Positions 1 through 32,778 of a stretch of DNA of 32,778 nt are shown piece after piece. The stretch is from contig MAYW01000037.1 of assembly GCA_001723765.1 (NCBI GenBank), positions 1-32,778 on the forward strand. The letters are read 5' to 3'. Source of the stretch: Candidatus Scalindua rubra (GTDB lineage Bacteria > Planctomycetota > Brocadiia > Brocadiales > Scalinduaceae). The translations under genes were made by a program, and so were the position numbers. Numbering within the stretch: position 1 is the first letter of the stretch; each line of letters starts with the position of its first letter. Below the pieces are notes generated by a model. It made no database searches and was not told the DNA's origin. It was given only the letters and a program-made list of their open reading frames with translations.

Positions 1-480
1 ATCTTTTTCATAACCCATACCATGACCTCCTGCTATTTTAGCTGGAACCAAGGATGATGTGGTGATGGCTTCTATAACATCTTCATCTGTATTTAACTCC
101 TTTTTGTTTTCAAAAAACTTTCTGAGATTTATATGAAATTCATAGCTTTTTTTGTAGGCAGGAATCTTTTTGACATCTTCGATATCTTTTTCTGTAGTTT
201 CATCATATTCAATAGAATTTGCAAATATTTGATTTATTTCGTATATATGGCAATCATCACTTTTTTCACAATCATCGCACGTTTTGTTTTTATAATCGCA
301 ATCTTCATGTTTATGACTCCATCCCATCTCTTTTGCTATGAGTTCATCACAATTGGGATGATTCTGTAGGGTTTCAAATAACTCTAGATATTTTGCTGTA
401 CGAACATCTGCTTTTTGCAGGAATCTTTCCCAATCTTCCTCATCCCAATCTTCGTTTTCATAAAAATCTTTATCTTTCAT
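1..480 (-). CDS. Unrecognised acidic, Cys-rich protein, C-terminus cut by window edge
   Basis: An open frame of 160 codons begins at an ATG (478-480, read on the minus strand) and runs off the left edge without a stop. An AAGGA-type ribosome binding site lies just upstream (about 488-492). The N-terminus is very acidic (MKDKDFYENEDWDEEDW). Around residues 69-85 there is a cysteine cluster (CDYKNKTCDDCEKSDDC) that could bind metal. The start lies 14 nt after the mqnC stop, so it is probably the third gene of the mqnA-mqnC operon. I do not recognise the family and assign no function. The overlapping plus-strand frame at 133-369 is its shadow. Confidence 0.7.
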   Translation of the reverse strand, partial: MKDKDFYENEDWDEEDWERFLQKADVRTAKYLELFETLQNHPNCDELIAKEMGWSHKHEDCDYKNKTCDDCEKSDDCHIYEINQIFANSIEYDETTEKDIEDVKKIPAYKKSYEFHINLRKFFENKKELNTDEDVIEAITTSSLVPAKIAGGHGMGYEKD

Positions 481-2410: not shown

Positions 2411-2484
2411 TGTCATTGCGAGTGAACAAAGTGAGCGAAGCAATCTCATAGAAGGGATTGCTTCGCTAACGCCTCGCAATGACA
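2411..2484. repeat. Palindromic dispersed repeat, TGTCATTGCGAG type
   Basis: Nested inverted repeat between the divergently spaced minus-strand genes: TGTCATTGCGAG (2411-2422) pairs with CTCGCAATGACA (2473-2484), and inside it GCGAAGCAATC (2435-2445) pairs with GATTGCTTCGC (2456-2466). Short palindromes beginning GTCATT and containing GAATC/CAATC occur at several other intergenic sites in this window. Confidence 0.9.
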
Positions 2485-2537
2485 GGTGTCGATTTGACAT
2501 TGAATACGTTAACGTAATTATGAAATAGACTACTAAG

Positions 2538-3125
2538 TTACTTTTCAATCATAGTAATCTTTTTTGAGGTTAAGCGAGAAAGATTTTCTGCGTATGAGAG
2601 AATCTCTTCTTTTTTAGGATGTCTGTCAAAATATAGTTTACCCAGTTCTTTACCCTTCAGACTCATCAGCCAATATCCAGCTCGTATCCCTTTACCTGTT
2701 CCTCTTGCACTTGCTCTCCGCATGGCAACTGTTTCACTCTTGCATACATTTTCTATTACAATTTCATCTATTTTAGTAAATTTGATTTTAGTCCTCCAAA
2801 TAGGGATGAACATAAATTTAAATCGGATGTAAATTACCTCCAGCTTCTTATCAACTTCTATTTTCTTATCGTAAAATAGTAAAAAAAAGCCAAGAAGGGG
2901 AAAAGCAATAAATGAGATTATAATAACAAAGAATAGGGCTTTATCTATAATAGCACTTGAATAATACAGTAACCATATATATACGCTCGCTGCTTTATAC
3001 ATAACAATGAAGACAAAGCTTAAGCCTAAAAGCATTCCCCCCATCGCCTTGGGAAATCTGGAACGTTTCAAAAACATTCTATTTTCATTTATTTCTGCTA
3101 TTTTAAGGGTTACAACCAATCCCAT
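2538..3125 (-). CDS. Hypothetical membrane protein with two N-terminal TM segments
   Basis: A 195-residue protein with AAGGAAA placed 8 nt before its ATG. Two hydrophobic segments lie at about residues 28-50 and 63-84. After them comes a soluble, basic, beta-rich-looking tail (KKLEVIYIRFKFMFIPIW and following) of the kind seen in small bacterial membrane proteins with a PH-like cytoplasmic domain. That resemblance is impressionistic, so I give no function. It stands alone between the mqnA-side repeat and the divergent alr gene. The 129-bp gap to alr must hold both promoters. Confidence 0.75.
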   Translation of the reverse strand: MGLVVTLKIAEINENRMFLKRSRFPKAMGGMLLGLSFVFIVMYKAASVYIWLLYYSSAIIDKALFFVIIISFIAFPLLGFFLLFYDKKIEVDKKLEVIYIRFKFMFIPIWRTKIKFTKIDEIVIENVCKSETVAMRRASARGTGKGIRAGYWLMSLKGKELGKLYFDRHPKKEEILSYAENLSRLTSKKITMIEK

Positions 3126-30345: not shown

Positions 30346-30415
30346 ACCCCGTAGGAATGCCCCGTGCGCCCGCCCGAACGTACCATTCGGTACGGGCGGG
30401 AAATTCCAACGGGGT
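30346..30415. repeat. Inverted-repeat element with ACCCCGT ends, copy 2
   Basis: ACCCCGTAGGAAT (30346-30358) pairs with ATTCCAACGGGGT (30403-30415) with one mismatch. The interior is a GC-rich hairpin, CCCGCC...CGTACC/GGTACGGGCGGG (about 30370-30401). The ends are almost the same as the element directly after rpoD (8335-8428), but the interiors differ. Confidence 0.8.
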
Positions 30416-30444
30416 TTACTATTACTATTTGGAGAAATCATGAA

Positions 30445-30882
30445 ATGAAAATTATGCAAAGAATTATGCTATGTAAGTCTTTTTTCGTACTGGTCTTGTT
30501 ATTTGCCATTTATGGTTGTCAAACTGCAAGTAATACCATTACTTCTGATAAAGTAACAGGAAAGCCTTACGAGATAGGAAAAGGATCTTTTGTAGAGTTA
30601 GAGAAAAAGGTGATTGGCAAGTGGATGAATCTTAAGGAAACAGAAGCAATCGAGTTTTTTGATGATGGAACTATGTTGATTGGTGCAGAAGACAATTTTC
30701 ATCCAGAAGTAAGGGGTTATTATAAGTTTGTTGACAATGATCGCCTGAAAGTGCATTTTGGAAAAGGGTTTTATGATAAATTAATACCGCCAATGTCCTT
30801 TAAGATTGCTGTTTCTGAAAATGAGATTACGTTGACAGATGAGCCGGATGGAGCAGCTACAAGATATAAACGAATAAAATAA
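30445..30882 (+). CDS. Putative lipoprotein
   Basis: A 145-residue protein. The N-terminus is a type II signal: MKIMQRIMLCKSFFVLVLLF then AIYGC, with a lipobox-like cysteine at about residue 26. The mature part has GKWMNLKETEAIEFFDDGTM and a beta-rich series ending EITLTDEPDGAATRYKRI. This is the small beta-barrel pattern of DUF5640-like lipoproteins. GGAG lies 10 nt before the ATG at 30445. The open frame upstream to 30364 runs through the repeat and is not used. Function unknown. Confidence 0.75.
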   Translation: MKIMQRIMLCKSFFVLVLLFAIYGCQTASNTITSDKVTGKPYEIGKGSFVELEKKVIGKWMNLKETEAIEFFDDGTMLIGAEDNFHPEVRGYYKFVDNDRLKVHFGKGFYDKLIPPMSFKIAVSENEITLTDEPDGAATRYKRIK

Positions 30883-30895
30883 CCTATTTTAATGA

Positions 30896-31282
30896 GGAAT
30901 TTCCATTTTAACTACTTATGATGCAATAAGATACATCCTTGTCATTCTGAGCCCTTCGCTTGTGTCATTCTGAGTGACCAACGGGAACGAAGAATCTATT
31001 TATGATAAATTCAGCAAAGAATCTACAAATGATACTCAGGATAAACTCCGTGAAGAATCTAATGCTTTCGGCTCAGAGCTTGCCCTTGACCCTGTGGAGT
31101 AAAACAGATCAAAACTACTCCACAGGGGAAGGGATAAATTCCGCGAAGAATCTCTCATTAGTAAGCCAATGATGTTTTGTGAGGTTAGTGAAGTCTCCAT
31201 AAAGAGATTCTTCGGTCGTTCCTCCCTCAGAATGACATGTTAGCGTTATGCAAAAAAGTCCGCCCATAGGGCGTTAAGTTCA
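30896..31282. repeat. Composite repeat block with conserved ends, copy B
   Basis: The block starts AGGAATTTCCATTTTAA (30896-30912) and ends with AGTCCGCCCATAGGGCGTTA (from 31257 to 31282), the same ends as 21858-22126. The interior holds GTCATTCTGAG (near 30951 and again near 30966) opposite CTCAGAATGACA (near 31227-31238), several GAAGAATCT repeats, and a CCCTGTGGAGTA/TACTCCACAGGG palindrome. No gene lies in 30883-31288. Confidence 0.7.
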
Positions 31283-31288
31283 CTCATT

Positions 31289-32203
31289 TTATTCGTACGG
31301 TGTAAAGGCTACCCTTAAATACTCATCATTCATTGTTTCAACTGATTTCTTAACTCTAGATAATGGATATATTTTTTTAAATCTAGATGATGGTTTTCTT
31401 TTTTGTTTGGGGCTCATCTTAATTCTAGATAGCGGATTTATTTTTTGTCTGGGATTTAGTTCTAGAATTTCTCCTGTGACATTTGCTTCGAGATTTGCTG
31501 ATGAACTTGCTTTTGTTATTCTTGACATTTGTTCAAAGGAATTATTAGTATTAAAGTATGTCCTTCCCTCTTCAGTTAAATAGTATTCGGTAATGCCATA
31601 ATATGAACCTATTTTGAATGTGATATTTCCATTAGGATTTTTTTCAAAAAACTCTATTGAGTTTCCTATCATATTCATTAAGTCTGATTTTGAAGGATAA
31701 GCACTTTTGATTAAAAATTTTATTTTTTCTTTTTCTATTTCTTGATCATTCATAGTCAAGCCTTTTTCATTTCGTTCTTTGATTTCATCTTCTAAATGAA
31801 GGCTATGGGATGGATGAAAATGGTAAACGACCATGTCTTTGTTTCCTATTATTAGTTCATCCAAAAGCTGAACATCAAGTCCAGTTTTAGTGATATAATT
31901 TCCATTTATTTTTCTTTCTGATTCTTCATTGATTCCGATTTCAATCCATTTTTCCTGGTGAGGCAAAAAAGTCCAGCTTTCTTCTATTTCTGAAGTGTTT
32001 ATGAGTTTCCTCATTTCCAATATTCCTTCTTCCTCATTTTTGTAGATTATGGTTCTGAATTTATTCTTATTGTTAACAACTAAATTGTTAATAACTACAT
32101 ATTTTTCCTTATGATTTTCTTTTTCAGATGCTATAGAAATTTGATTAAGACAAACTATAAAAGCGAATATACCCGTCCATATTAAAGTTAGATAATTTAG
32201 CAT
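31289..32203 (-). CDS. Secreted protein with JAMM-like HxHP...SxxD signature
   Basis: A 304-residue protein with an N-terminal hydrophobic signal (about 4-25). Its centre has MVVYHFHPSHS (H128, H130, P131, S132) and, 38 residues later, YPSKSDLMNMI (S171, D174). Together these resemble the HxHP...SxxD metal-binding signature of JAB1/MPN/Mov34 (JAMM) metalloproteases, but with an insert of about 35 residues and no obvious catalytic Glu placement. The C-terminal 55 residues are basic with a repeated (P)LSRIK/PSSRFK/PLSRVK motif. I make no firm functional claim. It stands alone, with repeat-rich DNA on both sides. Confidence 0.6.
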   Translation of the reverse strand: MLNYLTLIWTGIFAFIVCLNQISIASEKENHKEKYVVINNLVVNNKNKFRTIIYKNEEEGILEMRKLINTSEIEESWTFLPHQEKWIEIGINEESERKINGNYITKTGLDVQLLDELIIGNKDMVVYHFHPSHSLHLEDEIKERNEKGLTMNDQEIEKEKIKFLIKSAYPSKSDLMNMIGNSIEFFEKNPNGNITFKIGSYYGITEYYLTEEGRTYFNTNNSFEQMSRITKASSSANLEANVTGEILELNPRQKINPLSRIKMSPKQKRKPSSRFKKIYPLSRVKKSVETMNDEYLRVAFTPYE

Positions 32204-32274: not shown

Positions 32275-32375
32275 TAATTTTTATTTGATCCGAAAATAGA
32301 TTCCCGATCGTGGTCGAATGACAACTTGTGACGCTCTAACTTATTTACACAATTCAATCCCCATTTACATGAGGA

Positions 32376-32562
32376 CATGTTTTTCTGTCATTCCCGAGGA
32401 ATAACTACTTGGGAAGCAGACAGGGAATCTAGATTTTTCATATATTCGTGATGAATCTGATAGTCATGAGCGTTTAACATGAAAACAAACTCTGGATTCC
32501 TCCCGAAAGGGAGGAAATACCCCCGCTTTCGCAGGGATTCCAGTAGTTAGCGCTGGAATCCC
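32376..32562. repeat. GTCATTCCC and GGATTCC palindromic repeats
   Basis: Two adjacent elements of the dispersed palindrome class: GTCATTCCC opposite GGGAATCTAGA (32376-32432), and a GGATTCC/GGAATCC set with two small hairpins (32491-32562). Confidence 0.75.
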
Positions 32563-32778
32563 GCCAGGGCGGACGAGGACGCCTTTCAAAAGGAAGGGTA
32601 CATAACTTCACTTGATATTGAGCAATTACAAAAAATTTACAAAAATGAATTTTTACAAGACAGTACTTTAAATGACTTATAAATCTGCAATCTGAAATCC
32701 CTGGCCCAGACCGCAAGGCGGATCGCACCAGGCAGGCCGAAATCTAAAATCCTTAAATGATTATGACTGAGGTAATAA

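Follow-up and report, generated by a model that had tools for sequence, protein, structure and literature searches.

The gene and its surroundings

The window, a stretch of 32,778 nucleotides of Candidatus Scalindua rubra (contig MAYW01000037.1), contains a minus-strand open reading frame that starts with ATG and encodes a protein of 304 aa. The gene and its features are the following.

31289..32203, minus strand: whole gene of a probably exported JAMM-like protein (open reading frame; homologues in 14/17 genomes of the family)
32129..32203, minus strand: signal-peptide-like N-terminus, residues 1–25, with a hydrophobic core at residues 5–19 (hydropathy)
31979..31981, minus strand: E75, candidate general base, immediately preceding the first strand that follows helix 57–69 (invariant in 14/14; paired with the Prok-JAB Glu by hhalign)
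31811..31822, minus strand: H128-F-H130-P131, with the candidate zinc ligands, where strand 125–129 ends (both His in 14/14; P131 in 10/14)
31694..31810, minus strand: residues 132–170, a loop with a predicted helical-hairpin insert, helices 132–146 and 153–168 (both models, alignment, spacing comparison)
31682..31693, minus strand: S171-x-x-D174, with the candidate third zinc ligand and its accompanying serine, where helix 172–188 begins (both residues in 14/14; helix in both models)
31577..31621, minus strand: predicted strands 195–199 and 203–209 with the conserved SxYGITE (alignment, full-length model)
31331..31453, minus strand: basic tail, residues 251–291, with two PLSR[IV]K units (14 K+R, 1 D+E; basic in 14/14)
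31298..31318, minus strand: predicted last strand, residues 296–302 (both models; within the range aligned to MPN structures by VIA)

An earlier note on this DNA had pointed to HFHP (128–131) and PSKSD (170–174) as the two parts of a JAMM-like metal signature, and both are present at these residues. It had also described a basic repeat tail, which the composition of residues 251–291 and the repeated PLSR[IV]K bear out. Its third proposal, an export signal, agrees with the features of a signal-like N-terminus: mean hydropathy of residues 5–19 is 2.42, all later 19-residue segments are at or below 0.68, and a possible cleavage site follows S23-I24-A25. No Lys or Arg precedes the hydrophobic core in the window member; the 13 other aligned homologues have 1 to 4 within 12 residues. 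On these sequence features, the protein is probably exported. In Kuenenia, also an anammox bacterium, canonical Sec signals are described on cell-envelope and anammoxosome proteins alike (PMC2881027), and the signal therefore cannot tell the envelope from the anammoxosome.

Homologues occur in 14 of the 17 genomes of the Scalindua family and in none of the other 45 genomes of the order (62 order genomes in total). Those of Ca. Scalindua arabica and a Ca. Scalindua sp. are 62% and 57% identical, respectively, and the same two protein sequences recur unchanged in two genomes of the family. Beyond the family, phylum samples of 294 genomes (searched with the single sequence) and 392 genomes (searched with the profile) yielded weak partial matches only. 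These (E 0.006 to 0.1) were dropped because they were short or partial and some ran across stops; the best of them (L002, E 0.006) appeared by eye to be a TPR-like protein. A collection of genome contigs was scanned by exact peptide seeds, which distant relatives may escape, and the assembly of the window (G000) is 88% complete. Three genomes of the family have no homologue (G302, G304 and G309). The gene seems to have been cleanly lost in G302 and G304, since the fumarase genes usually found ahead of it remain intact (L145 and L146, respectively) and are followed by other genes, different in each. On these searches, the JAMM-like protein forms an orphan family confined to the Scalindua family of anammox bacteria.

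In 9 of the 14 loci examined, fumarase subunit genes are neighbours of the gene, mostly close by and co-directional. This linkage is missing in the window and in two more distant genomes, so no function was read from the operon. Members of a lipoprotein family are likewise found near the gene in 9/14 loci; in the window, a small lipoprotein-like gene (30364–30882), weakly DUF5640-like (E 0.00017, below the cut-off), is convergent with the JAMM-like gene. Repeat-like non-coding sequence (gtcattctgag..., gtcattcccg...) was seen by eye on the flanks, at 30920–31270 and 32300–32600 of the window. A repeat-like sequence present in one copy in the window, at 32387–32429, seems to recur just after fumarase on contig C253 of the same assembly (L142, about 2480–3020, translated frames), and the separation of the gene from fumarase in this assembly may reflect a repeat-mediated rearrangement or a misassembly.

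Conservation of the candidate site and position of the insert

Conservation was assessed in an alignment of 14 sequences, 43–66% identical to the window protein, from which L018 and L025 were left out as identical to L013 and L014. Invariant positions number 55 of 304, and they include all five candidate site residues, E75, H128, H130, S171 and D174. H128 and H130 are the only invariant histidines (2/6), D174 is one of two invariant aspartates (2/7, the other being D110), and P170 is the sole invariant proline (1/10); P131 is replaced by Ser or Thr in 4/14. E74, beside E75, is invariant as well. The dN/dS ratio was 0.19–0.32 in four of five pairs and 0.49 in the fifth, which is nearly identical. 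The residues of the JAMM HxH and SxxD elements are present in all 14 homologues, together with an upstream glutamate that hhalign pairs with the catalytic JAMM Glu. E75 and H128 are 53 residues apart in 14/14; the corresponding distance in AMSH-LP is 55 residues (E292–H347, residue numbers from PMC9313428). Although freely spaced halves of the signature are common in proteins, the retention of five residues and both spacings in 14/14 places the signature beyond chance.

The JAMM motif is given as ExnHxHx7Sx2D (PMC9313428), with seven residues between the second His and the Ser, whereas 40 are found here in 14/14. From the second His (H130) to the Asp (D174), the distance is 44 residues in each of the 14 sequences, and it was 11 in all 85 sampled proteins (Prok-JAB, 55/55; RadC, 30/30), a sample restricted to proteins fitting the search pattern, which all 85 loci did. 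The acidic helical insert of about 35 residues proposed in the earlier note held up in part: two helices were predicted in both AlphaFold models and 38 residues lie between P131 and P170, about 33 more than canonical, but the segment is only mildly acidic, with 9 D+E and 7 K+R in residues 132–170 of the window protein. Among the JAMM families considered, no insertion between HxH and SxxD is known to us; Ins-1 is located between the Glu and HxH. Passages in which papers describe JAMM insertions name Ins-1 and Ins-2 and mention none between HxH and SxxD. Ins-2 of Rpn11-type JAMMs lies between S6 and S7 (PMC6043591). The insertions of AMSH, AMSH-LP and Sst2 are placed elsewhere than the one seen here.

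Profile and fold comparisons

Searches of Pfam, NCBIfam, PHROGs, PDB, plasmids, phages and viral contigs with the single protein or the profile assigned it to no family, and the JAMM models of Pfam and NCBIfam gave no match. In hmmscan of the 14 members, neither Prok-JAB (PF14464) nor RadC (PF04002) matched above the Pfam curated cut-off. The earlier note had suggested a search for remote homologues by profile methods. With hhalign, the best match of the family alignment to 30 Prok-JAB sequences pairs GILEMRKLINTSEIEESWTFL with the first helix and glutamate of JAMMs, so that E75 falls on the JAMM glutamate (probability 7%, P 0.005); the earlier note had made no use of this element of the signature. 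With the mature family and 55 Prok-JAB sequences, it was the HxHP strand that aligned best (score 26.4, probability 11%), exceeding 150/150 column shuffles (top 22.84). As a yardstick, the accepted relatives Prok-JAB and RadC scored 25.2 against each other; our family, insert left in, scored only 19.0 against RadC.

When residues 135–166 were left out, a single alignment ran through Glu, HxHP and SxxD against the 30 Prok-JAB sequences (score 27.8), and the score against the 55 rose to 32.0 over a shorter stretch; these columns were chosen by hand and are biased toward the JAMM hypothesis. Two other cuts gave lower scores (22.6 and 23.8), yet both were above 200 shuffles (top 20.75). The hhalign probabilities are low (about 11%) unless the insert is left out. 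Neighbour families, 34 in all, served as decoys: against Prok-JAB, one of them, which has an HxHxD motif, reached 29.2, and the rest reached at most 19.1. The HxH match alone is therefore unspecific, and the case rests on the combined evidence. That decoy carries the sequence THGHGD and is presumably a metallo-beta-lactamase; it outscored the JAMM-like family against Prok-JAB, but it was not among the six decoys that match the JAMM-like family best, and a metallo-beta-lactamase reading was dropped.

Two template-free AlphaFold models were built, of the full-length protein (mean pLDDT 49.5) and of residues 48–304 (53.4; four of five models above 50). The full-length model predicts strand 50–54, helix 57–69 and strands 78–80, 85–89, 94–99 and 102–107, followed by helix 111–119, strand 125–129 ending in HxH, the two extra helices, helix 172–188 starting at SxxD, and strands 195–199 and 203–209. 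The model of residues 48–304 repeats this order from helix 57–69 on and lacks strand 50–54. In the eight-stranded fold of AfJAMM, strands 1 and 2 are separated by a long helix and strands 4 and 5 by a short one (PMC9313428). In our reading, the predicted elements follow the order seen in MPN proteins, into which a pair of helices has been inserted.

Foldseek with the model of residues 48–304 placed JAMM/MPN chains in 18 of the 20 best rows, with a best probability among them of 0.75 (AMSH-LP, 2znr); the top row was an ADP-dependent glucokinase. With the full-length model, AMSH appeared at ranks 5, 7 and 9, and no row reached E 0.001 with either model. In VIA, all 50 rows listed for the model of residues 48–304 were JAMM/MPN, the best being RadC (2qlc_D; Z 5.7, rmsd 3.9, 107 aligned), where Z below 8 may mean just a common arrangement. 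The matched structures include eIF3h, EMC, CSN6, Prp8, Npl4 and proteasome chains, all of which we take to be MPN proteins. For the full-length model, the best VIA rows were unrelated (Z 3.6) and MPN proteins were a minority. MPN structures were thus clearly retrieved, by a model of low confidence (pLDDT 53.4), and the predicted fold points toward JAMM/MPN.

Several known systems share parts of this architecture. Prok-JAB and PfJAMM1-type proteins have the same Glu, HxH, SxxD order and order of elements, and PfJAMM1 itself was matched in VIA (5ld9_A; Z 5.3, rmsd 3.7, 108 aligned; model of residues 48–304). They differ from the Scalindua protein in their short His–Asp distance, and the latter has a signal-like N-terminus and a basic tail and falls below Pfam detection. 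RadC would share the JAMM fold, as judged from the models, and HxHP...SxxD, again with the short spacing; it is cytoplasmic. AMSH, AMSH-LP and Sst2 gave the best Foldseek probabilities, with AMSH-LP similar in its Glu-to-His distance. Tox-JAB-1 and Tox-JAB-2 (DUF4329) are likewise exported JAB domains (PMC3482391), whereas the Scalindua protein is a stand-alone product of 304 aa among fumarase, lipoprotein and housekeeping genes, and neither RHS or other toxin repeats nor an immunity gene was recognised among its neighbours by eye. A DUF4329 search of 246 phylum genomes returned zero matches, as did its control.

Because its spacing departs from the fixed one and it escapes the Pfam models, the Scalindua protein is not a canonical JAMM/MPN+ member; it probably works like one. 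The JAMM-like signature of the earlier note is favoured by conservation, element order, profile comparison and, with models of low confidence, fold comparison, and true homology is the most likely source of the resemblance.

Proposed function and alternatives

Taken together, we consider it likely that the protein is a zinc hydrolase, exported and of divergent JAMM/MPN fold, that carries a helical lid between its zinc ligands, with peptidase the likeliest activity. The open reading frame, its conservation, the spacing and the distribution of the family are observed directly. The JAMM/MPN fold is favoured by the computed comparisons; zinc binding, catalysis, export, the role of the lid and the substrate are what we infer. 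The N-terminal signal would lead the protein across a membrane, into the periplasm or the anammoxosome lumen. There, H128, H130 and D174 would hold a zinc ion, E75 would activate a water molecule, and S171 would support the site. The hairpin of helices that separates the HxH strand from the SxxD helix would lie beside the active site, acting as a lid or a specificity element. The likeliest reaction would be cleavage of a peptide bond in the flexible tail of another exported protein.

The earlier note had called an exported JAMM protein unusual. This holds, although the exported JAB domains of polymorphic toxins are a precedent (PMC3482391). The same 2012 source describes the prokaryotic members known until then as intracellular apart from the toxin modules. 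A literature search at the level of titles and abstract beginnings found no exported bacterial JAMM proteins, and none of the papers retrieved combined JAMM with Scalindua. JABs are also described beside E1-like, E2-like and ubiquitin-like genes (PMC1779556); no such genes were recognised by eye among the neighbours here. That the protein is a resident JAMM protease of the anammox envelope or anammoxosome, working without ubiquitin-like partners and with a helical lid inside a supposedly fixed zinc spacing, is a more speculative proposal that we regard as doubtful.

That the protein is an exported nuclease of JAMM fold and not a peptidase, with the basic tail binding nucleic acid, strikes us as unlikely, if conceivable. 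RadC and Tox-JAB lack the residues of the ubiquitin-tail tunnel and have been suggested to be nucleases (PMC3482391), RadC heads the VIA rows in a tie with others, and such an enzyme would fit with the tail, basic in 14/14, and with neighbours among which no ubiquitin-like partner was recognised by eye. Against this, nuclease activity of RadC-type JABs is itself a suggestion, PfJAMM1, AMSH, BRCC36 and Rpn11 differ from RadC by no more than about 1 Z, and neither toxin repeats nor an adjacent immunity gene was recognised by eye. We find it improbable that the protein serves as a catalytically inactive MPN-type scaffold, with its insert and tail binding partners. Inactive scaffolds exist among MPN proteins (PMC9313428), the broken spacing could mean a lost site, and the family is an orphan missing from some relatives, but the five site residues are kept in 14/14, in contrast to P131 and most of the remaining His and Asp. 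Similarly improbable is a different exported metal-binding or structural protein with a coincidental JAMM likeness, a reading that could draw on the low pLDDT of both models, the score of the HxHxD protein and a weak match between the insert region and calbindin in PDB (E 0.039) but that sits poorly with two separate profile regions matching (E75 and HxH), a fitting element order, the uniformly JAMM/MPN VIA rows and a best decoy score for the family of 19.9 among 34, below its 26.4 against Prok-JAB. The calbindin rows in PDB (E 0.039 to 0.38) were discounted as weak hits in a helical region rich in charged residues.

If the JAMM hydrolase reading is true, a complete helical hairpin can be accommodated between the ligands of the JAMM zinc signature as formulated in PMC9313428, and searches by motif or with Pfam models overlook proteins of this kind. 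The superfamily would also gain an exported JAMM that is not a toxin, in bacteria important to the nitrogen cycle. Separately, RadC matches numbered 7 in the assembly of the window and 9 in G020, above all others of the 59 genomes sampled, and the surplus possibly stems from mobile elements.
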